Below are positions 750 through 57,378 of a stretch of DNA of 57,832 nt, piece after piece (position 1 is the first letter of the stretch; each line of letters starts with the position of its first letter). The position numbers and the translations under genes were made by a program. The DNA is from Candidatus Poribacteria bacterium (GTDB taxonomy: Bacteria; Abyssobacteria; SURF-5): assembly GCA_016215705.1 (NCBI GenBank), contig JACRIR010000265.1, positions 1 to 57,832 of the forward strand, read 5' to 3'. The notes under the pieces were generated by a model that saw only the letters and a program-made list of their open reading frames with translations, was not told the DNA's origin and ran no database searches.

Positions 750-1991
750 ATGAGTTATCTTGACCTGAATCCCAACCTCACGAGCGAACAACTCACACTC
801 AAAGAAGAGGTGCGCCGCTTTGCCTCGGAGGTGATGCGGCCCGCTGCCGAGAAACTGGATAAGTGCGCCAGTCCCGCCGATGTCATCGCGAAAGATTCGA
901 TTCTTTGGGACGTACTCCGCCAGAGCCGCGAACTCGGCTACCACACACGTGTTCTGCCGGAGGCGCTCGGCGGACTGGCGTTGAGCCCGACCGACCAGAA
1001 CATCATCAGCGAGGAGATGGGGTGGGGGAGCGCCGGGCTTTCCGTGTGCATGGGAGCGGGCACAATGCCCTATGCAATGGCCGCAATGTTCGGCAGTCCC
1101 GAACTGATCGAGGAGTTCGTGATCCCGTTCCGTGACGATACGAAGGCGAAATATGTCGGCTGTTGGGCGATCACCGAACCTGAGCACGGCGGCGGCGACC
1201 AATTGCTGATCGGCTCGAAGAGGGAAGGGATACCTCTTATCCGGCACGATACCCGCGCAAAGCTCGACGGAGACGAATGGGTAATCAGAGGCCAGAAGGC
1301 CGCGTGGGTCTCGAATGGAACCATCGCCACGCATGCCCTGCTCCACACAAGCGTGGACGGGACCGGCGACGAGCGCGATGCCGCCCTCTTCTTCCTGCCT
1401 CTCAATCTGAAGGGCATTTCAAAAGGAAAACCGCTCGACAAGATCGGCCAGCGCGACCTCAATCAGGGAGAAATCTACTTTGACGAGGTGCGAATCCCGA
1501 AACATTACATGATTGTCAGCCCCGAAATGCACGAGCACGTGCTCGACATGATCCTCGCCGGCGCAAACGGAGGAATGGCCACCACGTTCACAGGAGTGGC
1601 GCGGGCCGCATTCGAGGAAGCGCTCAAGTATTGCAAGGCGCGTGTCGCAAGCGGAAAGACGCTTGCTCAGCATCAGCTCGTGCAGAAAAGGCTCTTCGAT
1701 ATGTTCACCAAGGTCGAGTGTGCGCGCGCCCTCGCCCGCGCGGTCAACGGCTATAACGCCCAAACGATGCCTCCGGAGCCGCACTACGCCGTAGCGGCAA
1801 AGGTGCACAATACACAGGTTGCTTTTGACGTTGCCAGCGACGCCGTCCAACTCCTTGGCGGAAACGGACTCAGCAAGGAGTATCCGATCGAGAGAATCTT
1901 CCGCGATGCCCGCGCCGCCTTGATCGAGGACGGCGATAACGACACGCTCACGCTTGGCGGCGCACGGTATTTGCTGGAACGCTATAGTTAG
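750..1991 (+). CDS. Acyl-CoA dehydrogenase family protein
   Basis: About 413 residues, standard for FAD-dependent acyl-CoA dehydrogenases, which introduce the alpha-beta double bond into acyl-CoA and pass electrons to ETF. The N-terminal helical domain is followed by the flavin-binding stretch WAITEPEHGGGDQ and by the C-terminal helical domain with QLLGGNGLSKEYPIER. The catalytic base is normally a Glu near the C-terminus; an IEDG sequence about 20 residues before the end is the likely equivalent, differing from the common YEGT motif. An ATG at 738 is also in frame; 750 was chosen because GGGGGAG precedes it, although the spacing is tight. A 20-base-arm palindrome begins on its stop codon. 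The substrate is unknown. Confidence 0.9.
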   Translation: MSYLDLNPNLTSEQLTLKEEVRRFASEVMRPAAEKLDKCASPADVIAKDSILWDVLRQSRELGYHTRVLPEALGGLALSPTDQNIISEEMGWGSAGLSVCMGAGTMPYAMAAMFGSPELIEEFVIPFRDDTKAKYVGCWAITEPEHGGGDQLLIGSKREGIPLIRHDTRAKLDGDEWVIRGQKAAWVSNGTIATHALLHTSVDGTGDERDAALFFLPLNLKGISKGKPLDKIGQRDLNQGEIYFDEVRIPKHYMIVSPEMHEHVLDMILAGANGGMATTFTGVARAAFEEALKYCKARVASGKTLAQHQLVQKRLFDMFTKVECARALARAVNGYNAQTMPPEPHYAVAAKVHNTQVAFDVASDAVQLLGGNGLSKEYPIERIFRDARAALIEDGDNDTLTLGGARYLLERYS

Positions 1992-2033
1992 GAAAATCGG
2001 GGACACGATGCCGCATCGTGTCCCCGATTTTCC
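1991..2033. repeat. Long perfect palindrome (GGGGACAC-ATGCCGCAT family), copy 1
   Basis: Left arm 1991-2010 and right arm 2014-2033 are perfectly complementary over 20 bases around a CCG centre. The inner core is GGGGACACGATG and the outer arm is GGAAAATC. The first base is the last base of the acyl-CoA dehydrogenase stop codon, so the transcript would end in a very stable hairpin. There is no T-tract after it. Related copies lie at 8018, 9251, 18344 and 57352. Confidence 0.9.
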
Positions 2034-2075
2034 CCGCAGAACTTCAACCGGCGCATTATAAGGGGGAATATCACT

Positions 2076-3071
2076 ATGACTCTTGACCAGAAATACATGG
2101 ACCTCTTCCGCCCCAAAGTTCACTGGGGCAAAATCGAGGTCGATCCGGACAAATGTATCGGCTGCGGTCAGTGCGTGCAAAACTGCCCCGGCAAGATACC
2201 CGCGCTCGACGCCGACGGTAAAGCTCATATGTCGAGGGTAGAATGTTTTTCCTGCTCGAATTGCGCGGTCACATGCCCGACCGACGCTATAACGATACGG
2301 GAAACTTTCTTTGTAGAAGAGGGCTTCCACAAGACAATGCCTGCCGACGTTCCTTATAAACTGCCCGCCCAGCCGCTGGACGCCGCAGGCAAACCGGCGG
2401 AATACACACTCGTAGAGAAAGCAGTGCTCGGGCGACGCAGCGTCAGAAACTACAAAGAGCAGTCGGTTCCGGAGACCCTGATACGGCGCATTCTCGAAGC
2501 GGGCAGACTCTCCCCCAGCACGGGCAACTGCCAGCCGTGGCGCTTCATCGTCATCACCGATAAAACCCTGCTGGATGAACTTGCCACAAGGATTCAACCA
2601 ATGGCGCAGATGGTCAGCATGATGTATCGGGCCGACGAAATGCTCGAGGCGCTTGCCGCCCAATACGAGGTCGAGCCGGACCCGGGACTTTTTGACCCGC
2701 GCGTTCAGAGCGGCGCCCAGGCTATCGGCGAGGGCATCCTGCCCGTGTTCTTGAACGCTCCCGCCCTCATCGTTTTGCTCGGAGATGAACGAGCCATCAG
2801 CGGGCCCGAAATCAACATCGGGATTTGCGGCCAGAACATGACGCTGGTCGCAAACTCGCTCGGGCTGGGCGCGTGCTGGGTCGGTTTCATCAGCCTCGTC
2901 AACATGATGCCGGACCTGATGGAGCGCCTCAATATCGAAGCGCCCTATAAGGTTGTTTCATCGCTCGCCATTGGTTACCCGGCGTTCAAACAGGAGGGCA
3001 TGGTGGCCCGCGAAGCCAAACCGGTCACGTGGTTCCGCGCGGGCTCGAGTGGGCGGGAAGTTGAGCAATAA
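2076..3071 (+). CDS. Ferredoxin-nitroreductase fusion protein
   Basis: 331 residues in two parts. Residues about 20-75 hold two [4Fe-4S] ferredoxin motifs, Cys27/30/33/37 (CIGCGQCVQNCP) and Cys57/60/63/67 (CFSCSNCAVTCP). From about 115 to the end is an FMN nitroreductase fold with RRSVRNYKEQ, SPSTGNCQPWRF and GLGACWVGF. An SD, AGGGGGA, precedes the ATG by about 8 bases. This domain order is known in the nitroreductase superfamily; the ferredoxin part probably feeds electrons to the flavin. Its place between an acyl-CoA dehydrogenase and a thiolase suggests reduction of an unsaturated or aromatic acyl intermediate, or electron transfer linked to that pathway. The substrate is not evident. Confidence 0.88.
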   Translation: MTLDQKYMDLFRPKVHWGKIEVDPDKCIGCGQCVQNCPGKIPALDADGKAHMSRVECFSCSNCAVTCPTDAITIRETFFVEEGFHKTMPADVPYKLPAQPLDAAGKPAEYTLVEKAVLGRRSVRNYKEQSVPETLIRRILEAGRLSPSTGNCQPWRFIVITDKTLLDELATRIQPMAQMVSMMYRADEMLEALAAQYEVEPDPGLFDPRVQSGAQAIGEGILPVFLNAPALIVLLGDERAISGPEINIGICGQNMTLVANSLGLGACWVGFISLVNMMPDLMERLNIEAPYKVVSSLAIGYPAFKQEGMVAREAKPVTWFRAGSSGREVEQ

Positions 3072-3095
3072 AAGCAAATGAAGAATGATGAATAC

Positions 3096-3123
3096 GGAGA
3101 TTCTTCGCTTCGCTCAGAATGAC
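3096..3123. repeat. Interspersed repeat (TTCTTCGCTTCGCTCAGAAT type)
   Basis: The 28 bases from GGAGATTCTTCG to CAGAATGAC are identical to 50706-50733 and match the reverse complement of 50642-50674 apart from small insertions. It lies in the 216-base gap between the ferredoxin-nitroreductase and thiolase genes. No gene was seen in the rest of that gap. It has the look of a dispersed intergenic repeat. Confidence 0.75.
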
Positions 3124-3287
3124 GGCGAATGGTTCAGGGTAGCGTCGTTTTATCTTCCCTTTCGCCTTGTTCTCTTAATCTTTGCTCATCAGTGAGAATC
3201 TGCGAAATCAGCGGATAACATATATGCATTCATGAAATTCGGCTCTTGATTTGTGCTGTTCGTGTTCCAGGAATGGAGAATTCGACG

Positions 3288-4532
3288 ATGCGGAAAGTGA
3301 AAATCATCGGTGGCGCGGTCACCAAATTCGGCAAACACATGAACCGCAACATGAAATCACTTGTCGCCGAAGCGGTCGAGGGCGCGCTCACGGACGCCGG
3401 AATAACAAAAGCGCAGCTTCAAGGCGCGTGGGTCGGCAATGCTGCGCAAGGAATCAACGAAGGCCAGGAATGCATCCGCGGCCAGGTTGTCCTCCGGGCC
3501 ATGGGAATCGGTGGCATCCCCGTGGTCAACGTTGAGAACGCATGCGCCTCGTCGGCCACAGCCTTGAATGGCGCGTGGGCAATGGTCGCCCTCGGAGAGA
3601 TTGATGTGGCGTTGGTGATCGGCATGGAGAAGATGTACCATGAAGACCGCAGCAGGGTCATCAAAGGATTCATGGCCGGCATGGATGTCGAGGTTGTCTC
3701 GCAGATTATGGATGCATTCAAGCAGCAGGAAGAGGAAGTCAGGAAAGCGCGTGAGGCAAGAGGAGAGAAGGAAAAAGAAAAATCCGGACAACGCACGATC
3801 TTCATGGATTTATATGCGTCGGGCGCGCGCAGGCATATGGAGAAATATGGCACTACACAGAGGCAATTGGCGGCTATTTCCTCCAAGAACCATTTCCACT
3901 CTTCCATGAATCCGCTGGCTCAATACCAGAACAAGCTCACAATAGAAGAAGTGCTTGCGGCGCCCGAGGTGGCATGGCCGTTGACTCGCTCCATGTGCGC
4001 TCCCATAGGCGACGGCGCTGCCGCGGCAATAATCTGTTCTGAGGAATATGCGCGAAAACTCGGAAACCGGAACATCGCCGAGGTGGCTGCCTGCATGCTT
4101 GCCAGCGGCGAAGACCGGGAGGAAGATCAAGAGCCCACTCTGACGAAGCTGGCCCGGAAGGCCTACGAGAAGGCGGGCGTAGGTCCCGAAGAAATAGACG
4201 TTGCCGAGGTTCACGATGCCACCGCATTCGGCGAGCTTTCATCTCTCGAGCAGTTGAACCTTTGTTCCGTGGGCGAGGGTGGCCCTTTCGCCGAGGCGGG
4301 CCACACAACCTTGGGCGGCAAAATACCGGTGAACGTTTCGGGCGGTCTCGAGTCTCAGGGACATCCAGTGGGCGCGACCGGTTGCCGACAAGTCGTAGAG
4401 CTCTACTGGCATCTCACCGGCCGCGCAGGCCAGAGACAAGTGCAAGGCGCTAAGGTCGGCCTTGCACAGAATGCCGGCGGCAGCGTCGGCGGAACCGAAG
4501 CGGCGCTGTCGGTGACCATTTTGAAAGCGTAA
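3288..4532 (+). CDS. Thiolase family protein (SCP-x-like acetyl-CoA acyltransferase)
   Basis: 414 residues from the ATG at 3288, chosen because GGAG lies about 9 bases upstream; upstream in-frame starts at 3246 (TTG) and 3273 (ATG) lack this. The nucleophile is probably Cys86 in NVENACASSATALNGAW. The active-site His is at about 359 in SQGHPVGATG, and EVHDATAFGEL corresponds to the HDCF-type region of SCP-x-like thiolases. The C-terminal Cys-x-Gly of classical degradative thiolases is replaced by AQNAGGSVGG. The family cleaves or condenses acyl-CoA thioesters; some members without the second Cys do other CoA chemistry. A Lys/Glu-rich insertion at about 155-165 is unusual. It is probably part of the same pathway as its neighbours. 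Confidence 0.87.
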   Translation: MRKVKIIGGAVTKFGKHMNRNMKSLVAEAVEGALTDAGITKAQLQGAWVGNAAQGINEGQECIRGQVVLRAMGIGGIPVVNVENACASSATALNGAWAMVALGEIDVALVIGMEKMYHEDRSRVIKGFMAGMDVEVVSQIMDAFKQQEEEVRKAREARGEKEKEKSGQRTIFMDLYASGARRHMEKYGTTQRQLAAISSKNHFHSSMNPLAQYQNKLTIEEVLAAPEVAWPLTRSMCAPIGDGAAAAIICSEEYARKLGNRNIAEVAACMLASGEDREEDQEPTLTKLARKAYEKAGVGPEEIDVAEVHDATAFGELSSLEQLNLCSVGEGGPFAEAGHTTLGGKIPVNVSGGLESQGHPVGATGCRQVVELYWHLTGRAGQRQVQGAKVGLAQNAGGSVGGTEAALSVTILKA

Positions 4533-4603
4533 CATCGGTTGCTGTTTCAAGAATGCATTGAGCGGTAGCTATTAACTCCAAGTCGAAGACTGCGAGCCGT
4601 AGC

Positions 4604-4634
4604 CTGTAACCGTAAACCGTGAACCGTGAACCGT
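4604..4634. repeat. Heptamer tandem repeat AACCGTR
   Basis: About four copies of a 7-base unit (AACCGTA or AACCGTG) lie just upstream of the acyl-CoA synthetase ribosome-binding site. The same unit recurs at 6309-6335 after that gene, so the synthetase gene is bracketed by the repeat. Confidence 0.7.
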
Positions 4635-4648
4635 GGAGAGACCTTGTC

Positions 4649-6235
4649 ATGTCGCAGGAACCTGAACTGAACTATTTCGCTGACCTTATCGAACATCGGG
4701 CGCAGACCGTGGGCGAAAAGCCCTACATCTTTTACGAAGACCAGAGAATCAGTTTTGCAGCATTCAACCAATCCACATGTCGCGCAGCGAATGGGCTCAA
4801 AGCGCAAGGCGCGCGCTCCGGAGACGGCATAGCCATTCTCATGGGTAACTGCCCGGAGTACCTGGGCATCTTCTACGGGATGCCGCGCGGTGGCTTCTAT
4901 AGCGTGCCTGTGAACGTCGCCCTGAAAGGCGATGGTCTCCGCTACATCCTGACCAACTCGGATGTAAAATATCTCGCGATCGACGATGTGTTGTTTCCCA
5001 AAGTCGCAGAGCTTGGCAACCCACTAGGCGCGATTGAAAAAGTGTTTGTGCGCCGCACGACGGACGCTCCTTTGCCCGCAGGCGCCCTCGACCTGAGAAC
5101 CCTTTTTGAAGCGCCTGCCAATAAACCCGACCACGCGCCGGACCCCGATGCGATCACTTATCTCATGTACACATCAGGGACCACTGGTTTCCCGAAAGGA
5201 GTGGTAAATCGGAATCGTTCCGCCAACGTCCAGCAATTCATGGTGTTGGCGTCCATCATGGTCAAACCCGACGACATGCTTTACACCTGCTTGCCCCTGT
5301 TTCACGCCAACGCCCTGATACTGACCGCCGGATTCGCAATGTCGCAGGGCGTGCCGTTCGGGCTCGACAAGCGGTTTTCCGCTTCGAGATTCTGGGACTC
5401 GATCAGGCGTTACGGCGTCACACAGTTCAACGCGCTCGGGGCCATGATACCGATTTTGATGAAGCAGCCGGAGAGGTCCGACGATGCTGATAATCCGGTC
5501 CGCCTGGTGAACTCGGCTGCGTGTCCTGCGAATCTTTGGGAAGCATTTGAGAAGAGGTTCGGCCTCAAGATATGGGAGGCATATGGAGCGGTTGACGGCG
5601 GCGGCGTGCTCATTTTCAATTTCGGCAATGCGCCCGTAGGCTCGGTCGGCAGACCCATGCCCAACATCGAGTGGAAACTCGTGGATGACGAAGGCGCTGA
5701 AGTCCCGGAAGGACAAATCGGAGAACTGATCACTAAAGTCGCCGACAAAAGAAGCCGCACCGTAGAGTACTACAAAAACCCCGAAGCTTCAGCCCGGAAG
5801 GTGAGAGGCGACTGGATTCATTCCGGCGACCTCTTTTATCGTGATGCCGAGGGCAATCTCTTCTTTGTCGACCGCAAGAGTGATTCGATGCGTCGCCGGG
5901 GAGAGAACATCTCTTCATTCGAGGTGGAGAACATTATCGAGAAGCATCCCGCCGTCGCAGAATGCGCAGCGTTCGGCGTCCGCTCCGATCTCGGGGAAGA
6001 CGAGGTGATGGTATGGGTGAAGACCAGGCCCGGTTTCCAACTCGACCTGAAAGACCTGATGCGGCACTGCGCCAAAAGCATGGCCTACTTCATGGTTCCC
6101 CGATACGTGGACGTGGTGGACGATATCCCGCGCACCGGAACCCTGCGGATTCAAAAAGCCGAGATGAAGAAACGAGGCGTGGCCGCAGGGACGTGGGACA
6201 GGGAGAAGGAGATGCCTGACCTGAAGCTCAAGTGA
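4649..6235 (+). CDS. AMP-binding acyl-CoA synthetase (CaiC-like)
   Basis: 528 residues from the ATG at 4649, which has GGAGAG 8-10 bases upstream. An in-frame ATG at 4619 lies inside a tandem repeat and is less likely. Adenylate-forming motifs are present: YTSGTTGFPKG at about 174-184, YGAVDGGG, HSGDLFYRDAEGNLFFVDRK, and the C-terminal GTLRIQK with the catalytic Lys. These enzymes activate a carboxylate to acyl-AMP and then acyl-CoA. The overall pattern resembles crotonobetaine/carnitine-CoA or medium/long-chain fatty acyl-CoA ligases. As the last gene of the cluster it would supply the CoA ester used by the dehydrogenase and thiolase upstream. The exact acid cannot be read from sequence. Confidence 0.9.
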   Translation: MSQEPELNYFADLIEHRAQTVGEKPYIFYEDQRISFAAFNQSTCRAANGLKAQGARSGDGIAILMGNCPEYLGIFYGMPRGGFYSVPVNVALKGDGLRYILTNSDVKYLAIDDVLFPKVAELGNPLGAIEKVFVRRTTDAPLPAGALDLRTLFEAPANKPDHAPDPDAITYLMYTSGTTGFPKGVVNRNRSANVQQFMVLASIMVKPDDMLYTCLPLFHANALILTAGFAMSQGVPFGLDKRFSASRFWDSIRRYGVTQFNALGAMIPILMKQPERSDDADNPVRLVNSAACPANLWEAFEKRFGLKIWEAYGAVDGGGVLIFNFGNAPVGSVGRPMPNIEWKLVDDEGAEVPEGQIGELITKVADKRSRTVEYYKNPEASARKVRGDWIHSGDLFYRDAEGNLFFVDRKSDSMRRRGENISSFEVENIIEKHPAVAECAAFGVRSDLGEDEVMVWVKTRPGFQLDLKDLMRHCAKSMAYFMVPRYVDVVDDIPRTGTLRIQKAEMKKRGVAAGTWDREKEMPDLKLK

Positions 6236-6308
6236 ACCATATGATAGGCGAAAGGCGAAAGGGGATCAAAACCCTCTTGCGCCGATGTGTTTAGCTTCTT
6301 CCTGATTC

Positions 6309-6335
6309 AACCGTGAACCGTAAACCGTAAACCGA
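6309..6335. repeat. Heptamer tandem repeat AACCGTR, second array
   Basis: About four AACCGTG/AACCGTA units lie between the acyl-CoA synthetase and the ftsB-like gene. They match the array at 4604-4634. The rest of this 107-base convergent gap has a GGCGAAA duplication and no gene. Confidence 0.65.
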
Positions 6336-6342
6336 TTCCTTG

Positions 6343-7943
<1,601 letters not shown>

Positions 7944-8017
7944 TCATTCTGAGCACCCGATACCACCTGTGGCGGGATTATGCGCGAAAGAAACCACAAG
8001 TCATTCCCGCACACGCA

Positions 8018-8066
8018 TGCGTTTATTCGGGGACACCATGCCGCATGGTGTCCCCGAATAAACGCA
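8018..8066. repeat. Long perfect palindrome (GGGGACAC-ATGCCGCAT family), copy 2
   Basis: Arms 8018-8040 and 8044-8066 are perfectly complementary over 23 bases around CCG. The core is GGGGACACCATG and the outer arm TGCGTTTATTC differs from copy 1. Seven T residues follow at 8069-8075, so on the plus strand it has the form of an intrinsic terminator, yet both flanking genes (enolase and the SurA-like gene) are on the minus strand. It lies in the 234-base gap between them, together with a C-rich/G-rich repeat at about 8089-8120. Confidence 0.9.
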
Positions 8067-8153
8067 CATTTTTTTATGTCGAAGCGAGGGCCCCCTTTTC
8101 CTCCCCTTATCCAAAGAGGGAATCTTTATGGACAGGGCTTCCCGAATGCGCCG

Positions 8154-9155
8154 TTAAATCTTGACTTCGATGAAAGCGTCTTGCCGCAGCTTCTTTATCC
8201 AGTCCTTGTACTTCTGGTTGCGCTTGTTCTCGGTGATGCGCTCTTCGATTAGCGGTCTGGCTTCTTCAAATGAAACCTTTCTGGCCGGAGTTACCTCGAG
8301 CGCTTTGAGCAAGTAGAGTCCGTAACCAGTCTGCACGAGAGGGCTGACCTCGCCCGGCTTCAGGCTGAAGGCCACCTCTTCAATCTCAGGAAGCATTTCA
8401 CCCGGGCTGACCTCGCCGAGCAATCCGCCTTTCTCTCGATACGGGCCTTCAGAGTATTTCATTGCTATTTCCTCAAAGGAAACGCCGTCCTCGATGAGGA
8501 TTCGCAGTTGCTCCCCCTTTTGCCGCAGCCGCTCGATCTCCTCCGGTGCGCTGCCGGCTGCAATCTTGAGGAATATTTGAGCCAGTTTGACCTTTAGCTC
8601 CGATACGAACTCGTCGGGGTGGCTGTCATAGTAATCCTGCATCTCGTTATCTGAAACCCGAATGCCCGCTCCGACTTCGCTCCTGACTGTCTGCTGCACG
8701 AGAACCTGTTCGGCCACCTGCTCGCGATACTCGATATAAGAGACGCCCCTGGCCGCGAGGGCCTGGAGGAATACGTCCTCCGATGGGAACCGGCTCTTAA
8801 CCAGTTCAACGCGGGTGTCAACGTCTTTTTGATCGGCGACGAGGCCTTTCTGCCTTGCCACTTGCAGGATCAACTTCGTGTCGATGGCTTGCTCGATGAC
8901 GGTTTCGCGCAATTCCTTTATCTTCTTTTTCAGTTCGTCACCCTCGTACTTCGCGCGATATTCCTGCATCAGCGGTGTCATCGCTTCGTTTATTTGGCTG
9001 ACAAGTATCGCATCCTTGTTGACGATGATGGCAATGCCGTCGATGACACGCGAGAAGGCAGGAGTCGAAGAAAACAGAAGAGAGGCCGCAGCCGCCGCGA
9101 TTGCCGGCAGCCGCAGAAGTCTTGTCAGAAAAGCTTTTTCCGCGATGTCTCGCAT
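8154..9155 (-). CDS. SurA-like periplasmic peptidyl-prolyl cis-trans isomerase
   Basis: 333 residues. An N-terminal signal sequence (hydrophobic about 14-33, ending FSSTPAFS) predicts export to the periplasm. It is followed by a SurA_N-type domain starting DGIAIIVNKDAILVSQINE and a single parvulin domain at about 185-285 (KYSEGPYREKGGLLGEVSPGEM and GEVSPLVQTGYGLYLLK). SurA family members chaperone outer-membrane beta-barrel proteins, which fits a diderm cell. E. coli SurA has two parvulin domains; this one has one. No strong ribosome-binding site was seen at the ATG. Confidence 0.85.
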   Translation of the reverse strand: MRDIAEKAFLTRLLRLPAIAAAAASLLFSSTPAFSRVIDGIAIIVNKDAILVSQINEAMTPLMQEYRAKYEGDELKKKIKELRETVIEQAIDTKLILQVARQKGLVADQKDVDTRVELVKSRFPSEDVFLQALAARGVSYIEYREQVAEQVLVQQTVRSEVGAGIRVSDNEMQDYYDSHPDEFVSELKVKLAQIFLKIAAGSAPEEIERLRQKGEQLRILIEDGVSFEEIAMKYSEGPYREKGGLLGEVSPGEMLPEIEEVAFSLKPGEVSPLVQTGYGLYLLKALEVTPARKVSFEEARPLIEERITENKRNQKYKDWIKKLRQDAFIEVKI

Positions 9156-9233
9156 AGGAAATTCAGAAAGAGGATACCATAAAATGCCGCAAGCGTCAAT
9201 TTTCGATGGCCAATTATCTATGACCGGTTATCC

Positions 9234-9250
9234 GGTGACACGATGCCGCA
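9234..9250. repeat. Half copy of the palindrome family
   Basis: GGTGACACGATGCCGCA matches the left half and centre of the palindrome core but has no right arm. It abuts the full copy that starts at 9251, so the two are in tandem. Confidence 0.6.
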
Positions 9251-9297
9251 GCGAATAATTGGGGACACGATGCCGCATGGTGTCCCCAATTATTCGC
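9251..9297. repeat. Long palindrome (GGGGACAC-ATGCCGCAT family), copy 3
   Basis: Arms 9251-9272 and 9276-9297 pair over 22 bases with one mismatch in the core. The outer arm is GCGAATAATT. The right arm overlaps the last codon and stop of the minus-strand RND permease, so the permease mRNA would end inside the hairpin. It recalls copy 1 at the acyl-CoA dehydrogenase stop. Confidence 0.88.
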
Positions 9298-18343: not shown

Positions 18344-18386
18344 AGAAAATCGGGGACGCGATGTCGCATCGTGTCCCCGATTTTCT
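18344..18386. repeat. Long palindrome (GGGGACAC-ATGCCGCAT family), copy 4
   Basis: Arms 18344-18363 and 18367-18386 pair over 20 bases with one mismatch (GACGCG for GACACG). The centre is TCG instead of CCG. The outer arm AGAAAATC is almost that of copy 1. It stands free in the long intergenic region 17.9-18.8 kb. Confidence 0.87.
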
Positions 18387-21083: not shown

Positions 21084-21116
21084 AGGCGGCAGAAGTCTTT
21101 GGGCACAGAAGTTTAG

Positions 21117-21183
21117 ATCCCCCCTTACCCCCGTTTGCAAAGGGGGGAAGGTCGTCGAATCGATGCTATGTTATTCAGGAAAC
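21117..21183. repeat. C-run/G-run repeat element, copy A (before flgN)
   Basis: The segment has ATCCCCCCTT, then TTTGCAAAGGGGGGAAGGTC, then TGTTATTCAGGAAACG. The same blocks in the same order recur at 23170-23287. CCCC and GGGG tracts can pair. The remainder of the 263-base gap before flgN (21184-21346) has no recognised feature. Confidence 0.75.
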
Positions 21184-21346
21184 GTCATTCTAGTGCACTG
21201 AGTCACTAGCCCGTTTATGAAGTCGTGGGGGATTTTGCCCGATTCTTAAGGGATTTCCGCGCATAAAACTGATTGCGTTTCCATGAGTCAGGACGCTAGT
21301 GCAGCGCGCGTCTGCAATGACTAACTCAAGCGTGACATGACGCTAG

Positions 21347-23099: not shown

Positions 23100-23293
23100 C
23101 TCCCCCTTGAGAAAGGGGGACAAAGGGGGATTTAAGAAGTCATGGAAGTTCTTGGGAGATAGGAATTTTAAATCCCCCCTTCGACCCTTTGCAAAGGGGG
23201 GAAGGTCACCGAATTGAGGCACGTCGCCGAAGGGACGTCGCCGAATTAGTAAACGCAGCCGGATTAATGCATGTTATTCAGGAAACGCAGTAC
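23100..23293. repeat. C-run/G-run repeat cluster, copy B (between kinase and regulator)
   Basis: The 265-base gap holds a first hairpin-forming stretch (CCCCCTTGAGAAAGGGGG, 23102-23119). A second element (23170-23287) shares ATCCCCCCTT, TTTGCAAAGGGGGGAAGGTC and TGTTATTCAGGAAACG with 21117-21183. An ACGTCGCCGA duplication (23221 and 23235) lies inside it. The structure separates two genes that normally form one transcript. Confidence 0.78.
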
Positions 23294-23338
23294 TAGCGTG
23301 CATGATTGCACGACTTTGGTTTTCAGGGAGGTACATGG

Positions 23339-46564: not shown

Positions 46565-46581
46565 CGCGGGGGCATAGCAGA

Positions 46582-47166: not shown

Positions 47167-47168
47167 AC

Positions 47169-48383: not shown

Positions 48384-48406
48384 GATGACATCGAGGAAGC
48401 GGATTC

Positions 48407-48916: not shown

Positions 48917-48946
48917 GAGACGCCGTTTTGGTACGGTGCGATATCT

Positions 48947-49312: not shown

Positions 49313-49317
49313 CCTCA

Positions 49318-50613
49318 GTGGAACCGGTTCTGCTTGCGAAGCGACACATTGAAAACTCAACGGACATCAATATTGCCATCGGGGAAGGCGCTTACAAAGC
49401 GCTGCAAAAAGTCTTGACGGCGATGTCGCCGCCGCAGGTTCACAAGGAGGTCATGGATGCTGTTCTTCGCGGCCGTGGCGGCGCCGGATTTCCGGCCGGT
49501 CTCAAGTGGAAATTCCTTGACAAGAACCCGAAGAGAACGCGCTACTTATGCTGCAATGCCGATGAAAGCGAGCCGGGCACGTTCAAAGACCGGGTGATCA
49601 TGGAGACCGACCCGCACATGCTCATCGAGGGGATGATCATAGCCTGCTATGCGATTGACGCGCATGCGGGCTACATATTTCTGCGCGGCGAGTACGCCAA
49701 CTCCTTCCGTATTCTCACTAAAGCAATTGCGCAGGCCCGCGAGCACGGATTTCTCGGGGACAACGTGCTCGGCTCAGGCTTCAATGTCAACATCCACGTC
49801 CACGTAGGCGCGGGCGCTTATATTTGCGGCGAGGAATTGGCTATGCTTGAGTCACTCGGCGGCGCCCGTGGCTGGCCGAGGTTGAAGCCGCCCTATGCCG
49901 CCACTCGCGGACTTTTCTACGAGCCGACCGTTGTCAATAACGTTGAGACATTGGCTTGTGTTCCCCACATTGTCCTTCGCGGCGCCGATTGGTTCAAGGG
50001 CATGGGCAGCGAAAACAATTACGGCCCGAAGCTCTACTGCCTCAGCGGCCATGTCAACAAGCCCGGAGTCTATGAACTCCCGATGGGAACCACACTGAAG
50101 CAATTGATTGACCAAAGTGGCGGAGGGATTCCGAACGGCCGCAAACTCAAAGCCGTTCTGCCGGGAGGATCGTCATCGGCGGCGCTTACTGCAGAAGAGG
50201 TGGATGTTCCGATGGATTTCGATTCGATGTCGAAGGCCGGCAGCATGCTCGGCTCGGCCGGGATCATTGTCATGGATGATTCTACGTGCATGGTGAACGC
50301 CTGCTGGAACGTGGCCCGTTTCTATGCCCATGAATCCTGCGGGCAGTGTACGCCCTGTCGCGAAGGAACAAACTGGGTGGCTCGTATCCTGGGCCGTATC
50401 GAGCGAGGCCAGGGCGAGCCCGGCGACATCGATATGGCTCTTACAATCTGTGACAATATGCTCGGGCAGACGATCTGTGCTCTGGCCGACGGAGCGGTCT
50501 TTCCAATTCGAAGCATCATTCAGAAATTCAGGGCCGAGTTTGAGCGGCACGTCCGCGACGGCGCATGCCCGTTCGGGGCCAAGAGAAAATGGTACAGCGT
50601 GTTGCCCGAATGA
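49318..50613 (+). CDS. nuoF: NADH-quinone oxidoreductase subunit F
   Basis: 431 residues from GTG 49318, which has GGGAG 8 bases upstream; GTG 49303 is the alternative. NADH-binding GRGGAGFPAGLKW, FMN-binding NADESEPGTFKDR and GAGAYICGEE, and the N3 [4Fe-4S] ligands in ESCGQCTPCREG plus a later Cys (QTICALAD) are all present. It oxidises NADH and passes electrons to FMN and the iron-sulfur chain. Confidence 0.97.
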   Translation: MEPVLLAKRHIENSTDINIAIGEGAYKALQKVLTAMSPPQVHKEVMDAVLRGRGGAGFPAGLKWKFLDKNPKRTRYLCCNADESEPGTFKDRVIMETDPHMLIEGMIIACYAIDAHAGYIFLRGEYANSFRILTKAIAQAREHGFLGDNVLGSGFNVNIHVHVGAGAYICGEELAMLESLGGARGWPRLKPPYAATRGLFYEPTVVNNVETLACVPHIVLRGADWFKGMGSENNYGPKLYCLSGHVNKPGVYELPMGTTLKQLIDQSGGGIPNGRKLKAVLPGGSSSAALTAEEVDVPMDFDSMSKAGSMLGSAGIIVMDDSTCMVNACWNVARFYAHESCGQCTPCREGTNWVARILGRIERGQGEPGDIDMALTICDNMLGQTICALADGAVFPIRSIIQKFRAEFERHVRDGACPFGAKRKWYSVLPE

Positions 50614-50641
50614 AATTGCGCTTCATAGTGCTGTCAGGATT

Positions 50642-50733
50642 GTCATTCTGAGGAGCGAAGCGACGAAGAATCTCTCGTTTTCCTGAAAAATTTCGACCTA
50701 TAGGCGGAGATTCTTCGCTTCGCTCAGAATGAC
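50642..50733. repeat. Inverted pair of interspersed repeats between nuoF and nuoG
   Basis: GTCATTCTGAGGAGCGAAGC at 50642-50661 begins a 33-base unit ending at 50674. Its inverted, slightly shorter partner is at 50706-50733 (TTCTTCGCTTCGCTCAGAAT inside), identical to the copy at 3096-3123. The two arms can form a hairpin of about 28 pairs with a 31-base loop in the nuo transcript. The gap between nuoF and nuoG is 181 bases, the longest in the operon. Confidence 0.78.
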
Positions 50734-50756
50734 AAATGGATCGCTCGGAATGACAA

Positions 50757-50773
50757 GTGTCCCCGAACAAGCG
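50757..50773. repeat. Right-half fragment of the long palindrome family
   Basis: GTGTCCCCGAACAAGCG resembles the right arm of the copy at 8018 (GTGTCCCCGAATAAACG). It lacks a left arm. It ends just before the nuoG ribosome-binding site. Confidence 0.5.
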
Positions 50774-50794
50774 GGTTCTTCCTAGGAGTTTGCG

Positions 50795-52405
50795 ATGCCG
50801 GTCATCCGAATAGATCAGCGTGAAATCGAGGCGGACGAAGGGACCACGATCATGCAGGCGGCGGACAAGCTAGGTATCTTTATCCCCCGCTACTGCTATC
50901 ATCCCGGCCTCAGCATCGCAGGCTGCTGCCGGATATGCGGGGTCGAGGTCGAGGATTCTCCCAAGCTGCTTATGGCATGTGCAACTCCCGTCAAGGAAGG
51001 CATGGTTGTTAGAACCGACACCGAACGCGTAAAGATGGGCCAGCGCGCTGTGGAGGAATTCCTTTTGCTAAACCATCCCCTCGATTGTCCTGTTTGCGAT
51101 CAGGCGGGGGAATGCGTCCTTCAGGATTACAGTTTCACCTACGGATTCGGCGAGTCAAGGTTCCGGGAACAGAAAATCAAACAGCGAAAGAAGGACGTTG
51201 GCCGCGACTTGCTTCTGTATGCTGACCGGTGCATCATGTGCACCCGGTGCGTCCGGTTTGCGCACGAAGTTTCGGGCCACGACCAGGTGGGCGTGTTCAA
51301 TCGCGGCGCTCACACGGAGATAGGCGTCTTTCCCGGGATTCGAATCGACGACCTTCTCGCGGGCAACATAGCCGACATCTGTCCCGTAGGCGCTTTCCTG
51401 AGCAAGGACTTCTTGTTCAAGCGCCGTGTGTGGGAACTGAAGAGCACAAAGAGCGTCTGCCCCGCGTGTTCAGTCGGATGCAGCGTGCTTCTGGACCATG
51501 CCGACGGCAGAATTCATCGCCTGCGTCCTCGCCACAATCCGAACGTCAACGGCCATTGGATGTGCGACATCGGGCGCATGGACTATAAAATGGTGGGCAG
51601 CGCCGACCGCCTCAAGAAGCCCTTGGCGCGGAAAAATGGGATGCTCGAAGAAATATCGTGGAGCGACGTGATCGCTTATGCTTCGGGCCGTATCAGGCAA
51701 ATCATCACACGACACGGCGCTGACGCGCTCGCCTTTGTTATTTCTTCCGACGCGACAAACGAAGAGGCACTCACGTTCGCAAAACTTGCGGAAAAGACGG
51801 GCTCGCTGCAAAATCTCCGGTTGCTATCCGGCAAGCGCGGTGAACGGATTGAGTTTGCGGGCGGGTTCGTCATTGAGAGCGACCGTTCTCCGAACGAACA
51901 TGGAGTTCTCGACGTTCTCAAGGAATTCATGCCGCGCGAATCGCAAGAGCGTGTTACCGACCTGGGATCGCTCGCGGGTAAGCGCGGTCTATACATCTTT
52001 TGCGGCTCGCATTCTGACAGGGGATCGATTCAATTGCTGGCACGGGCCGCCGCAGCCGCTGATTTTGCGCTTGTCCATGGGAATGTTTCTTCTCCATTGA
52101 CTGAAGCGGCGACAATGGTTTTGCCGGGCGCGGCATATGCCGAGAAAGAAGGCACGTACACGAATCTGCGAGGGGTAATCCAGCGAATTCATCCTGCATT
52201 TGACCCGCCGGGTGATGCCGGTCACGATTTTGACATTGTGCTTCAGATTGCCGGGGCGATCGGAAATTCGCTTCCGTTTCAGACGGTCGCGGCGGCTTCG
52301 GCCGAGCTTGCGCGAAGACTTCGCGGCTATGTGTCGATGGAACAGACAGGCGATACCGGCTGGGTGAATCCGTACTCTCGAGTCGCGGGCGCAACGAAAG
52401 GCTGA
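50795..52405 (+). CDS. nuoG: NADH-quinone oxidoreductase subunit G (short form)
   Basis: 536 residues; E. coli NuoG is about 900. The N-terminal [2Fe-2S] domain has ligands near Cys34, Cys45, Cys48 and Cys62. Next are the N5-type ligands HPLDCPVCDQAGEC, a [4Fe-4S] group RCIMCTRCVRF with later CPVGA, and an N7-like set CPACSVGC with later WMCDIG. The remaining 270 residues are a reduced molybdopterin-oxidoreductase fold. AGGAG lies 6 bases before the ATG. The molybdopterin part is smaller than usual but a short NuoG is known in other phyla. Confidence 0.93.
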   Translation: MPVIRIDQREIEADEGTTIMQAADKLGIFIPRYCYHPGLSIAGCCRICGVEVEDSPKLLMACATPVKEGMVVRTDTERVKMGQRAVEEFLLLNHPLDCPVCDQAGECVLQDYSFTYGFGESRFREQKIKQRKKDVGRDLLLYADRCIMCTRCVRFAHEVSGHDQVGVFNRGAHTEIGVFPGIRIDDLLAGNIADICPVGAFLSKDFLFKRRVWELKSTKSVCPACSVGCSVLLDHADGRIHRLRPRHNPNVNGHWMCDIGRMDYKMVGSADRLKKPLARKNGMLEEISWSDVIAYASGRIRQIITRHGADALAFVISSDATNEEALTFAKLAEKTGSLQNLRLLSGKRGERIEFAGGFVIESDRSPNEHGVLDVLKEFMPRESQERVTDLGSLAGKRGLYIFCGSHSDRGSIQLLARAAAAADFALVHGNVSSPLTEAATMVLPGAAYAEKEGTYTNLRGVIQRIHPAFDPPGDAGHDFDIVLQIAGAIGNSLPFQTVAAASAELARRLRGYVSMEQTGDTGWVNPYSRVAGATKG

Positions 52406-52410
52406 GAACA

Positions 52411-53454
52411 GTGGCAGAGACTCTGGTGATAATCGGCGTGGCGCTCGCGAAAATAGTTGTTGTCTTCGCGGCTTTGCAGGTTACCATCATGTATTTGGTT
52501 CTTGCCGAAAGACGCATTAGCGCGTTTATCCAGGACAGGTTGGGTCCGAACCGGGTGGGGTGGGAAGGGCTCCTTCAGCCGATCGCTGACGGGTTGAAGT
52601 TTTTGTTTAAGGAGGACATCATTCCCTCACGCGCAGATAAGGTTATCTTTGTAATTGCGCCGGCGATGATTGTGCTGCCCGCGCTTATGACTTTTGCCGT
52701 TATCCCTTTCGGCGGCGTCCTTACCTTCGGGGGCATCAAGATTGATCTTCAGGTTGCCAGCATCGACATCGGACTTCTGTATGTTCTCGCAATGGCTTCC
52801 ATCAGCGTATATGGGATTATCTTCGGCTCGTGGGCGTCAGCAAACAAATATGCATTGATGGGCGGCCTCCGCTCGTGCGCGCAAATGATAAGCTATGAGA
52901 TTCCGCTCGGGTTATCGGTCATGGGAGTGCTGATGATGACCGGCACGCTCAAGCTTGAACAAGTCGTCGAGGCACAATCGACGTATGTTTGGGGAGTGAT
53001 CCCGCGTTGGAATATCATTTTTCAGCCTCTGGCGTTTCTTCTTTTTCTTACTTCGGCCATGGCGGAGAACAATCGCCTGCCATTCGATCTGCCGGAGGCC
53101 GAACAAGAGCTCGTGGCCGGATATCATACCGAATACAGCAGCGTCAAGTTCGCCATGTTTTTCATGGCCGAGTATGCGGCGATGATAACAAGTTCGGCGC
53201 TGGTCGTAATCCTGTTTCTTGGCGGATGGCTTGTGCCGGGTCTCGAAGCGCTTGGCCTGCCGCAGATTGTGAAGGAACTAGTCCAAATGGGCGCTTTTGT
53301 ATTGAAGGTGAGTTTCTTCCTTTTTCTGTATATATGGGTTCGTTGGACGTTTCCGCGTTTTCGTTACGATCAGCTTATGCGCCTGTGCTGGAAAGTGCTG
53401 TTGCCACTGGCGCTTGCAAACATATTTGTGACGGGCATTGTGATGGCGATGTAG
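52411..53454 (+). CDS. nuoH: NADH-quinone oxidoreductase subunit H
   Basis: 347 residues with eight membrane segments. Seen are ERRISAFIQDRLGPNRVGWE (start of the quinone entrance loop), SYEIPLGLSVMGV, and NRLPFDLPEAEQELVAGYHT. It links the membrane arm to the quinone chamber. GTG start at 52411, 5 bases after nuoG. Confidence 0.97.
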   Translation: MAETLVIIGVALAKIVVVFAALQVTIMYLVLAERRISAFIQDRLGPNRVGWEGLLQPIADGLKFLFKEDIIPSRADKVIFVIAPAMIVLPALMTFAVIPFGGVLTFGGIKIDLQVASIDIGLLYVLAMASISVYGIIFGSWASANKYALMGGLRSCAQMISYEIPLGLSVMGVLMMTGTLKLEQVVEAQSTYVWGVIPRWNIIFQPLAFLLFLTSAMAENNRLPFDLPEAEQELVAGYHTEYSSVKFAMFFMAEYAAMITSSALVVILFLGGWLVPGLEALGLPQIVKELVQMGAFVLKVSFFLFLYIWVRWTFPRFRYDQLMRLCWKVLLPLALANIFVTGIVMAM

Positions 53455-53480
53455 CGGAGAGTGATGAGTGATGAAATCTA

Positions 53481-53513
53481 TCGTAGGGGCGCCCCGCCGG
53501 GTCGCTCCTACGA
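53481..53513. repeat. GTAGGGGCG-type hairpin between nuoH and nuoI
   Basis: TCGTAGGGGCGCCCC (53481-53495) and GGGTCGCTCCTACGA (53499-53513) pair over 15 positions with two mismatches. It resembles the CGCGCCCCTACA part of 18308-18330. The 130-base gap contains nothing else recognisable. No T-run follows, so it is not a clear terminator. Confidence 0.75.
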
Positions 53514-53584
53514 AGAATTGCGAGGCGGCCTTGGTAGAGAGATCACGAAACAGGTGAGTGGAGCATTTGATACGGAGCTGATTC

Positions 53585-54112
53585 ATGGATGAGAAACCCG
53601 ACACCGAGGGCAAGCGGGAAGAGATCGTGAGAGAAGCTCACGAGATGAACTTTATTGATCGTCTCTACTTGCCCGCTTTGCTCAAGGGATTGGCCGACAC
53701 TTTTCGTCATTTGTTCGAGGAAAAGTTCACCATCGAGTATCCGGAACAGAAGAGGCAGGTATATCCCCGTTACCGGGGGCTCCACCGGCTGAACAAGGAC
53801 GAGCTTGGGCGCGTGAAATGCGTCGCCTGCTTCATGTGTTCCACGATCTGCCCCGCGCGCTGCATCTATATCGTGGGCGCCGAGGCGCCTTGGCCCGACC
53901 GCGAAAAGTATCCGGTGCGCTTTGATATCGACGAACTGCGATGCATCTACTGCGGGATGTGTGAGGAGGCTTGTCCTGTCGAAGCAATCGAACTGACTGA
54001 AATATACGACATGGTAGGCGCTTCGCGAAAGGACCTCATTTACAACAAGGAAATGCTTCTGGAGATTTACGACCGGACAAAAGAAAAGGGCGGCATGAAG
54101 AAATGGATTTAG
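53585..54112 (+). CDS. nuoI: NADH-quinone oxidoreductase subunit I
   Basis: 175 residues. Two [4Fe-4S] motifs (clusters N6a and N6b): Cys79/82/85/89 (CVACFMCSTICP) and Cys120/123/126/130 (CIYCGMCEEACP). It relays electrons to NuoB. The last 10 bases overlap nuoJ. The first 20 residues are charged and longer than in E. coli. Confidence 0.96.
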   Translation: MDEKPDTEGKREEIVREAHEMNFIDRLYLPALLKGLADTFRHLFEEKFTIEYPEQKRQVYPRYRGLHRLNKDELGRVKCVACFMCSTICPARCIYIVGAEAPWPDREKYPVRFDIDELRCIYCGMCEEACPVEAIELTEIYDMVGASRKDLIYNKEMLLEIYDRTKEKGGMKKWI

Positions 54113-54759
54113 TGGCTTATCTTGCCTTCGGAACGCTGGCTGCGCTGACGGCGTATCGGGCGGCAAAATCGAGAGCCATGCCCCATGTGGCCATTTGGGG
54201 CGCGGCCTCCGGAGCGTTTCTGATTGCAGCGGTGTGGGGGGCGTTTCGAGGCATAAGCAGCTTCCACGACTTCCTTTTCTATCTCGTGGCGCTGGTATGC
54301 GTTGTCTCCGCCGTCAGAGTTATCAGTCAACCGAATCCCGTCCATAGCGCCGTGTGGCTCGTCACCGTTTTCTTGTGTGTCTCAGTCCTTTTCATTTTGA
54401 GACGGGCAGAGTTCCTTGCTGCGGTTCAGGTCATCATTTATGCCGGCGCCATAATGGTGCTATATGTCTTTATCATAATTTTTGTCGACGTGGAGGTTAC
54501 GGGCGAAGAACCGGCGCCGCTGTGGATGACAGCGAGCGCCCTCGGACTTGCCGCGGCTCTTCTTGTGGCCCTTGTGCCGGTCGCCCTCAGCCTGCGGCCG
54601 GTTCAGTCGGCCGGAGTGATCCGTGCCGGATATGGTACGACCGAGAGAATAGCTGAGGCCGTTTTCTTTAATGCGACAGCGCCGTTTGAAGCCGTGTCGC
54701 TGGTTCTGCTCGTGGCGCTCATTGGCGCCGTCCTCATCGGAAAGGCAGAGAAGGAGTAA
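54103..54759 (+). CDS. nuoJ: NADH-quinone oxidoreductase subunit J
   Basis: 218 residues with five membrane segments. RVISQPNPVHSAVWLVTVFL and FLAAVQVIIYAGAIMVLYVF are the NuoJ signatures. It is part of the proton channel next to NuoA, NuoH and NuoK. It overlaps nuoI by 10 bases. Confidence 0.95.
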   Translation: MDLVAYLAFGTLAALTAYRAAKSRAMPHVAIWGAASGAFLIAAVWGAFRGISSFHDFLFYLVALVCVVSAVRVISQPNPVHSAVWLVTVFLCVSVLFILRRAEFLAAVQVIIYAGAIMVLYVFIIIFVDVEVTGEEPAPLWMTASALGLAAALLVALVPVALSLRPVQSAGVIRAGYGTTERIAEAVFFNATAPFEAVSLVLLVALIGAVLIGKAEKE

Positions 54760-54761
54760 CC

Positions 54762-55064
54762 GTGGCGACAGCTTCTGAATACATGGTTCTCAGTTCCGTC
54801 CTGTTCGCAGTCGGGTTTGTCGGATTCACTTTGCGCCGCAACATCCTCGTGATGTTCATGTCGGCGGAACTGATGCTTAACTCAGCCAACCTGAATCTTA
54901 TCGCATATTCGACGGAGTGGGGGAATCCCACCGGCCAGACCTTCGCCCTGTTTGTGATTGCGGTGGCCGCGGCGGAGGCCGCCGTCGGGTTGGCAATACT
55001 GATGCTGCTTTTCCGGGCGCGGGCGACCGTGAGCGCCGCCGACTGGAGGAGGTTAAAAGGGTGA
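54762..55064 (+). CDS. nuoK: NADH-quinone oxidoreductase subunit K
   Basis: 100 residues, the exact family length, with three membrane segments. RRNILVMFMSAELMLNSANL contains the conserved membrane Glu. AVAAAEAAVGLAILMLLFR is the third helix with the second conserved Glu. GTG start; the stop overlaps the GTG of nuoN. In most operons nuoL and nuoM come next; here nuoN follows directly. Confidence 0.95.
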   Translation: MATASEYMVLSSVLFAVGFVGFTLRRNILVMFMSAELMLNSANLNLIAYSTEWGNPTGQTFALFVIAVAAAEAAVGLAILMLLFRARATVSAADWRRLKG

Positions 55065-56551
55065 ACCTCTTGAGCGGTGATTTGAAATTGGTTCTGCCTG
55101 AAATCTTTATCTCGGTGACGGCGATGGGCATCCTGATTCTCGGAACTTTTGTGCGTGAACGGGGAAGAACATGGCTCGCATGTGTCACGCTTTCCGCCCT
55201 CGCCGTCACAGGCTATTATTTGATGACTCTTCGTTCGAACCCGTTTCATCCGGCCTATTCGAGTATGTATGCGCACGACGGCATGGCGCTCGTGTTCAAG
55301 ATGTTGTTCATCGTGGTCGGCATTCTCGCCGTCCTCGTCTCATACGATTTCCTTCGCACGCGCGGCATTCCCTGCGCTGAATTCTTCGCGCTCATATTAT
55401 TCTCCACTGTCGGAATGATGCTGGTTGCTTCCGCGTACGATTTCATGCTGCTCTTCGTCGGATTGGAGCTCTCTTCGCTGGCGACATATATACTCGTAGG
55501 CCTGACGAAGAAAGACCTCTGGTCGAACGAAGCGGCCATAAAATATTTTCTGCTCAGCATTTTTGCCAGCGCGATTCTCCTGTTCGGGATATCCATCGTT
55601 TACGCCGCAACAGGCACGACCAATTTTGGCGAAATCGCTTCGCGGGGGAGCGATCTCACGACGCGTCAACCGCTCGCAGCCGTTGTCGCGCTGGTTTTTC
55701 TCGTCGCGGCATTCGGGTTCAAGATAACAGCGGTTCCGTTTCACATGTACGCGCCGGACGTCTATCAAGGCGCTCCAACGCCAGTGACAATCTTCCTGGC
55801 GGTTGGCCCGAAGGCTGCGGCATTTGCCGGCCTGATTCGTGTTCTTGGCGCAGTTCACGCGATGAGTTCGGACTGGCTGATGCTGGTGTCGGCGCTTTCC
55901 TTCCTGACAATGACCGTGGGGAACGTGGGGGCAGTTTTGCAGACAAATGTCAAAAGGATGCTCGCATACTCGAGCATAGCGCACGCCGGATATGCGCTGA
56001 TCGGGGTAGCCTCGATCGCGGTCGATGATCGCGCCGGCGGCGTTTTCCCGAGCAGTACGGCGAGCGTGATATTTTACCTTGTGGCCTACACCATCATGAA
56101 TGTCGGCGCATTCAGCCTGCTCATGTACATGAGGCGTGACAAGGGCTTCGGTGAGGACCTGGCCGATTTCTCGGGTCTGGCGAGGCGAAGGCCCGTCGTG
56201 GCGGCAGCGATGTTGATATTCCTCTTGTCGCTCGCCGGCATTCCGCCCTCCATCGGCTTCCTCGGCAAGTTCTATATTTTCGCGACGGCGGTCCGCTCAG
56301 GATTGTACTGGCTGGCTGTCGCGGGCGTGTTGAACGCAGTCGTGTCACTTTTCTACTACGCGCGAATAGTCGTATATATGTTCATGAAGAAACAGGAACG
56401 CGATGTTTCGGACGTGAGGTCGTTCGCATTAAACCTCGCGCTCGGAGCGTCCGCTGTGGCAACCGTCGTCCTGGGAATCTTTCCTCAAACCATTCTTGAT
56501 GTTATTGCGCGGGCGACTTCAAATATTTTCACGGGAGGGATCATTCAATGA
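55061..56551 (+). CDS. nuoN: NADH-quinone oxidoreductase subunit N
   Basis: 496 residues from GTG 55061, which overlaps nuoK and has GGAGG upstream; the frame is open earlier inside nuoK. About 14 membrane segments are expected. AVPFHMYAPDVYQGAPTPVT followed by GPKAAAFAGLIRV is typical of NuoN and not NuoL or NuoM, and the C-terminal helix pattern fits ND2. It is the only antiporter-like subunit in the window. Confidence 0.96.
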   Translation: MNLLSGDLKLVLPEIFISVTAMGILILGTFVRERGRTWLACVTLSALAVTGYYLMTLRSNPFHPAYSSMYAHDGMALVFKMLFIVVGILAVLVSYDFLRTRGIPCAEFFALILFSTVGMMLVASAYDFMLLFVGLELSSLATYILVGLTKKDLWSNEAAIKYFLLSIFASAILLFGISIVYAATGTTNFGEIASRGSDLTTRQPLAAVVALVFLVAAFGFKITAVPFHMYAPDVYQGAPTPVTIFLAVGPKAAAFAGLIRVLGAVHAMSSDWLMLVSALSFLTMTVGNVGAVLQTNVKRMLAYSSIAHAGYALIGVASIAVDDRAGGVFPSSTASVIFYLVAYTIMNVGAFSLLMYMRRDKGFGEDLADFSGLARRRPVVAAAMLIFLLSLAGIPPSIGFLGKFYIFATAVRSGLYWLAVAGVLNAVVSLFYYARIVVYMFMKKQERDVSDVRSFALNLALGASAVATVVLGIFPQTILDVIARATSNIFTGGIIQ

Positions 56552-57285
56552 AATGCCCTGAGTGTGGAATCGAAAACAATGAGTCCCAGAAATACTGCGG
56601 CAATTGCGGTGGGCCGCTGGGTGGCGCGAGCATCAGCGATTTGTTCGAGGCGGCCTTCAAGAGCGAGGCCCGAGGCGACCTCAGCGGCGCGCTCGAGGCA
56701 TATGACCGCTTGCTCGAAAAGAGGCCGAAAAGTCAGGAAATCCTATTCAAGATGGGAATGGTTTGCTACGACCTGGGTCATCTCGACGATGCGATCGTGA
56801 AATTCCGGAAGGTCATCGAGTTCAACCCAAGGTTCATTTACGCTCACTTTCGATTGGGACTCTGCCTTTACCATAAATGTATGATTGAGGAAGCGATTAA
56901 GTCCTATTCCGACGCGCTTTCCACCGCGCCCGACTTCGTGCCGGCGCTCCTCCAACTTGGCATCGCCAACTTCCACATTGGGCGCCTCGAAAAGGCCATC
57001 GGGGCATTCCGAAAGGTCTCCGAATCAAGCTGCTCATACACACTCGCTCACTATTATCTCGGGCTCGCATACGAACGCATGCGGCGGACGGACGAGGCGA
57101 TTCAGCAATTCACCCTTGTATCAAAGGAGAACCCCAAAGACCCTTCCACCCACTATCATCTCGGCATTCTCTACAAGCGCAAGTTCATGAGAGACGCCGC
57201 CATTGGCGAGTTTATGCGCGCTCATCAACTCGACCCCTCTGACGAGGCCACCATCGAAGAGCTGAGCTCTCTGCAGCAGAAGTAG
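56548..57285 (+). CDS. Zinc-ribbon TPR protein
   Basis: 245 residues. The N-terminal zinc ribbon has Cys3/Cys6 and Cys17/Cys20 (CPECGIEN, YCGNCGGPL). From about residue 30 there are six TPR-like units, for example MVCYDLGHLDDAIVKFRKVI and FHIGRLEKAIGAFRKV. No membrane segment is seen, so it is probably a cytoplasmic adaptor. ATGA overlap with nuoN means it is translated with complex I genes and may help assembly or regulation, but that is a guess from position. Confidence 0.85.
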   Translation: MKCPECGIENNESQKYCGNCGGPLGGASISDLFEAAFKSEARGDLSGALEAYDRLLEKRPKSQEILFKMGMVCYDLGHLDDAIVKFRKVIEFNPRFIYAHFRLGLCLYHKCMIEEAIKSYSDALSTAPDFVPALLQLGIANFHIGRLEKAIGAFRKVSESSCSYTLAHYYLGLAYERMRRTDEAIQQFTLVSKENPKDPSTHYHLGILYKRKFMRDAAIGEFMRAHQLDPSDEATIEELSSLQQK

Positions 57286-57351
57286 TTGCTTTTGAGTGCA
57301 CGACCGACAAAAAGCGGGTTGTTTGTGCAAGGAATGCGGCTGCTTTTGATT

Positions 57352-57378
57352 GGGGACAACATGCCGCATGGTGTCCTC
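57352..57378. repeat. Palindrome family, degenerate copy 5
   Basis: GGGGACAACATG (57352-57363) and CATGGTGTCCTC (57367-57378) surround CCG and pair over 12 positions with two mismatches. Unlike other copies it has no extended outer arms. It follows the nuo-TPR operon by about 65 bases, so it may be worn-out sequence or a weak 3'-end structure. Confidence 0.65.

Follow-up and report, generated by a model that had tools for sequence, protein, structure and literature searches.

A high-copy palindrome family with a fixed GGGGWSAS-type core and coupled variable arms in a Candidatus Poribacteria genome

GGGGWSAS is the end motif of the TIRYT/TIRtron tyrosine transposases, and in the portions of the original account available to us (Di Nocera et al. 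2013, PMC3733652) the TIR families are called 'moderately abundant', some consisting of dispersed repeats that can pair with themselves. In Corneloup et al. 2018 (PMC6006769), transposases with such ends belong mostly to TnpA-Y1 subclass 2.1. The palindrome family reported here resembles this system in that GGGGACAC, present in nearly all copies, fits GGGGWSAS (GGGG[AT][CG]A[CG]), and in that Y1 transposases with such inverted repeats are encoded in the same genome. It differs in numbering hundreds of copies, in having a fixed core with coupled variable arms, which is not among the TIRYT/TIRtron features described in those portions, and in that no transposase with an identical end was found for it.

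A second comparison is with the classical REP/BIME sequences and their RAYTs (Nunvar et al. 2010, PMC2817692), to which the family is similar in its high-copy and mostly intergenic hairpins, its tandem half copies, and a genome that encodes Y1 proteins of the RAYT family. However, the present palindrome is symmetric with G4 inside the stem, no cognate RAYT was found, and in a 59-copy alignment there is no GTAG or GTGG column corresponding to the unpaired GT[AG]G foot that marks a classical REP, the place of the foot being taken by the paired AT-rich arm. A sequence-only reading of this DNA had likened the hairpins to REP elements mobilised by RAYTs; the likeness extends to the resident Y1 genes, which are bounded by GGGGACA or GGGGTCA inverted repeats, but not to the foot or to a transposase ending exactly in GGGGACACSATG. 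The family belongs with the GGGGWSAS transposon-linked repeats and not with the classical REPs.

The third comparison is with mutagenesis at quasi-palindromes. In E. coli, template switching is an established route by which imperfect palindromes become more perfect (PMC7202029), and compensatory changes have been suggested to arise in this way (PMC8794818). Such a process would increase the complementarity of arms and produce coupled double substitutions; in the present family, coupled substitutions in the two arms do occur between close relatives. Such mutagenesis is known from single events in genes, whereas here the pattern is seen throughout a repeat family and centres on a core of transposon type. 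Literature searches on GGGGACA in connection with palindromes, and on template switching in connection with REPs, brought up no account of the present family.

The element is a non-coding palindrome of 41-47 bp with a 27-nt hairpin core, GGGGACACSATG-N3-CATSGTGTCCCC. In the window, which here means the whole 57,832-nucleotide stretch analysed, copy 1 (1991..2033, 43 nt, arm class GAAAATC) has a perfect 20-bp stem with a CCG loop and starts on the final base of the stop codon of the ORF at 738-1991. Copy 2 (8018..8066, 49 nt, arm class TTTATTC) has a perfect 23-bp stem and is among the best covariance-model matches listed for the genome. Copy 3 (9251..9297) has perfect arms, GCGAATAATT/AATTATTCGC, around a core with one G.G mismatch and is directly adjoined by a left half copy, GGTGACACGATGCCGCA (9234..9250, plus strand). 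Copy 4 (18344..18386) has perfect arms, AGAAAATC/GATTTTCT, and one mismatch in the core, and it sits within a larger dispersed composite repeat that also occurs without the palindrome. A right half copy, GTGTCCCCGAACAAGC, lies at 50757..50772, and the fifth core site (57352..57378) is degenerate with unpaired outer arms. The sequence-only reading had described five sites with a common core, two half copies and no transposase gene, and these observations are borne out: half-core matches with at most two mismatches number 19 in the window against 8.0 expected, none of 100 shuffles reaches 19, both half copies are present, and a profile search of the genome gave no Y1 match on this contig. Its statement that the outer arms pair perfectly is true of four copies and fails at 57352. 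As a separate observation, an exact 29-nt repeat, CGGAGATTCTTCGCTTCGCTCAGAATGAC, is found at 3095-3123 and 50705-50733, and variant forms of this repeat border several of the palindromes outside the window, as at L029 13864.

Exact cores number 229 in the assembly (5.47 Mb), and a reversed-pattern control gave no matches in the same assembly. Within a 1.26 Mb sample chosen blind, mostly without regard to hits, 86 copies lie within two changes of the consensus, which extrapolates to approximately 370 genome-wide; this total rests on exact-pattern counting and the blind sample and not on the covariance-model search, which lists at most 150 scored matches per genome. The family is thus a high-copy one and not merely the few copies first seen. 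Mean density is about one copy per 15 kb, so the four copies in 16 kb of the window are a mild local excess, weaker than the dense clustering originally proposed. Only 21 of 130 copies fall inside ORFs, as judged by a crude ORF caller that places 78% of bases in coding sequence, and the palindromes lie in co-directional (73), convergent (22) and divergent (14) gene settings.

Close relatives lack the family. The exact core is absent from 40 relatives, two of the same family included, and in these two a covariance model gave just two weak matches per genome. The intergenic region of copy 1 gave no usable alignment with the orthologous region in the two same-family genomes. A scan of GTDB genomes, however, found the core, its inner part varying between CATG and CTTG, in metagenome-assembled genomes labelled Syntrophales/Syntrophaceae, Elusimicrobia and Acidobacteriota. 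Being absent from close relatives and present in unrelated lineages, the core has a distribution that does not track descent.

Core and arms vary in different ways. The core is near-invariant in sequence, the exceptions being positions 9 and 10, where coupled alternatives (C/G and A/T) occur, whereas 150 non-redundant copies carry 35 distinct paired heptamers in their arms, 23 of them singletons. Pairing at outer positions 1 to 11 of these copies is 91, 91, 91, 89, 90, 89, 84, 76, 53, 39 and 25%, the last figure being equivalent to shuffled pairing (26%). The arms are not free sequence. Adjoining the core, and read toward it, is a loose motif, SWWAWTC, the large classes being GAAAATC, TTAATTC, CTTATTC and TTTATTC; counted outward, position 4 is A.T in 131 of the 150 copies and position 2 is T.A in 126, so that a portion of either arm is motif and not arbitrary flank. 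The earlier view that the hairpin is conserved in place of the sequence is therefore only half right: the arms do compensate, but the 27-nt core is near-invariant and the arms keep SWWAWTC.

The coupling is well above chance. In the 59-copy alignment 92% of cells are paired compared to 76% in shuffles, and the covariation score is 0.370 against 0.114, a value that no slid register approaches. Arm positions 1-8 hold 356 double changes and 146 non-Watson-Crick cells, whereas in the core, with positions 9 and 10 set aside, the counts are 7 and 97, respectively. One alternative is that the arms belong to the element itself, with amplification of a handful of subfamilies whose arms differ but are palindromic. 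Three 6-mer classes (26, 23 and 15 copies) do account for 64 of the 105 copies paired over six bases, and longer flanks are common to members of some classes. However, when partners are swapped inside an arm class, pairing at position 7 falls from 0.91 to 0.59, which indicates that the coupling is more than shared ancestry of subfamilies. Together with the 23 singleton heptamers and the coupled changes seen within one duplicated insertion (below), this makes a founder effect improbable.

We propose instead, with a probability of about 0.5, that the family is a GGGGWSAS palindrome of the non-autonomous type, and that copying primed by its core hairpin reproduces one flank in the other. The 27-nt core would be the conserved part, probably recognised by a transposase, and because the GGGGACAC end is the GGGGWSAS motif of such transposases, the element is most likely a passenger of a TIR-associated (RAYT-like, HUH/Y1) enzyme that moves it as single-stranded DNA. 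The element would land beside, or bring along, the short AT-rich motif SWWAWTC; the core hairpin would then fold the strand back, and the 3' end would copy one flank as an inverted copy on the other side, reaching approximately 8-10 nt outward from the core. This could happen at insertion, through later template switching in replication, or both. Complementary arms would be made and re-made whatever their sequence, so that the two arms of a copy would change together around a constant core. Mobilisation by the resident transposases, single-stranded transposition, and fold-back copying as the cause of the arm coupling, with its timing, are what we infer from these patterns. Copying outward from a folded core would explain the limited reach of arm pairing, and copying from the core edge predicts that coupling lies mostly outward of the core, which constraint on the whole hairpin does not. 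The share of the arms taken up by the SWWAWTC motif counts against the proposal.

Such a constraint could act on an RNA (a 3' UTR stabiliser or terminator) or on a structure recognised by the transposase, with broken hairpins being lost or immobile. The strong covariation and the location of most copies outside ORFs are in keeping with it. However, uncompensated single changes persist at about 6% of core cells, so broken stems are tolerated; G.U cells, the expected intermediates, are few in the 59-copy alignment, which favours pairing at the DNA level; double changes separate loci merely 3% diverged; and the palindrome is symmetric and found in all gene orientations, with most arm classes lacking a U-tract. 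We therefore regard selection on the hairpin as quite unlikely. In Syntrophales and Elusimicrobia the core mostly stands without paired arms, so copying from the folded core cannot be automatic. Among 71 core copies in other genomes, 38 pair at no outer base, and 7 pair over at least five outer bases compared to 0.7 expected from shuffles.

Coupled changes are also seen between orthologous copies. The sequence-only reading had named a lack of such compensatory changes as evidence against it, and they were found at three Syntrophales loci. Between the 97% identical orthologues L145 and L245, arm position 5 changes from G.C to A.T; position 10 is G.C, C.G and T.A in L133, L236 and L237; and position 2 changes from G.C to A.T between L109 and L221. 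In the genome under study, one ancestral palindrome lies in the composite dispersed repeat, and its duplicates at L015, L057 and L020 have different two-sided changes in the arms, while changes in their cores are one-sided. These changes show that at least part of the coupling arose after insertion, provided that those loci were not re-inserted. A separate case is L239 (G056), from a species approximately 72% identical, which has a different palindrome, GGGGACAGATTTGAAATCTGTCCCC, at the intergenic site orthologous to that of the L133 core; the inner stems may have been replaced there or the site reused.

The composite repeat, GGGCGCAATGAATTGCGCCC...GCGCGATTCATCGCGCCC, occurs with and without the palindrome (L005 7351, L053 2839-2994, L028 7910-8066 and others, and 18344 in the window). 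Copies free of the palindrome hold sequence like one arm (GGATTTCTTGATTCATG), while the opposite arm has no counterpart. Among Syntrophales orthologues that are 96% identical, some carry the palindrome and others lack it. In the comparison of L109 with its empty orthologue one arm can be aligned, while the other stands in for unrelated sequence, some 14-19 nt being replaced. The empty orthologue L222 lacks the second arm, as do the more distant L225 and L226. In the genome under study itself, an empty counterpart was found for just one independent insertion. Since two events are few and the retained L109 arm also differs from the empty allele, the direction and timing of arm copying are uncertain. 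The CATGT-core is a common repeat unit by itself in Syntrophales, and some of the arm sequence there may have been carried in with the element. The D16 repeat, tried as an empty site for L023 14168, was uninformative because it stops at the insertion point.

These loci bear on the idea that the core inserted into pre-existing AT-rich palindromes such as terminators. Without the core, the arms do form perfect 16-20 bp palindromes, but the second arm is absent from the empty composite-repeat copies and from the empty L109 orthologue, the two loci that can be read, and this explanation was rejected as hardly credible. They also bear on a guide-target model, in which the carried arm is a guide that pairs with its target, as the guide and cleavage-site tetranucleotides of IS608 do, so that mismatching targets are never used. 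Guide pairing in IS200/IS605 is established (summarised in PMC6006769), and the composite repeat, where one arm is like sequence present beforehand and only the other is new, fits such a model. AT-rich boxes (TAATTC, GAAATC, TTATTC) also adjoin GGGGACA on its outer side, in this genome at solitary ends of transposon type and in other genomes at transposase ends, a recurrence which suggests a recognition or target motif and is a further point for guide pairing. However, each of the 23 singleton arm sequences would require a source element with a matching guide, the coupled changes between orthologues and between paralogues of a single insertion came after insertion, and known guides are about 4 nt long compared to the 8-10 nt seen here. 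We consider guide pairing unlikely as the source of the arms.

Profile searches gave three Y1-transposase matches in the genome, two tandem C28 genes and one C225 gene. The C225 gene has GGGGWSAS inverted repeats at its ends, GGGGTCAG/CTGACCCC; the C28 genes end in GGGGACAT, one base off the motif, and the ends of that transposon are also given as TTATTCCGGGGACATAATACC / GGGGACATAATACC. Both proteins pass the cut-off of Pfam Y1_Tnp (PF01797), whereas for NF047646 ('REP-associated tyrosine transposase') the C225 protein is above the cut-off and the C28 protein below it. The C225 protein ends in a DnaA-type C-terminal domain, a feature known from subclass 2.1.2 (PMC6006769). Related genes in other genomes are flanked by GGGGACA inverted repeats or by complete GGGGACAC palindromes; at L207 and L212 the transposase gene lies between two such full palindromes. 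With an assembly that is 92% complete, about 2.0 Mb of which was read directly, an exact GGGGACACSATG end was found at none of the three Y1 matches of this genome nor at those of other genomes, the nearest to cognate ends being the full GGGGACACAATACC palindromes beside L207 and L212.

If copying from the folded core is correct, a broader and more doubtful extension would be that, with every insertion of a hairpin linked to an HUH transposase, about 8-10 nt of target flank are copied in inverted form onto the opposite side, an inverted target-site duplication made by extension of the element's own 3' end. To our knowledge, such a duplication has not been described for IS200/IS605 or REP elements. 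GGGGWSAS repeats have been little studied and described as moderately abundant; the data presented here add a family with hundreds of copies in a single genome, whose core also occurs in at least three further bacterial lineages. The family matters because coupled arm changes are usually taken as proof of a functional RNA stem, and here they form a natural record in a DNA hairpin for which a role as RNA is not the obvious explanation.

Several smaller observations concern the repeats and genes around the family. A second dispersed repeat with CCCCCTTTGCAAAGGGGG and ATGTTATTCAGGAAACGTCAT is found in the window at 21096-21193 and 23150-23296, and a copy of it is abutted by a palindrome at L023 14168. 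The two C28 Y1 genes (L171/L003, G000) are near-identical and lie in tandem about 1 kb apart, with a spacer ORF that has leucine-rich-like repeats. Lastly, the half core with one arm forms tandem arrays at L023 8244, L186 10952, L170 161 and L020 5500, and in each array every unit carries the same arm.
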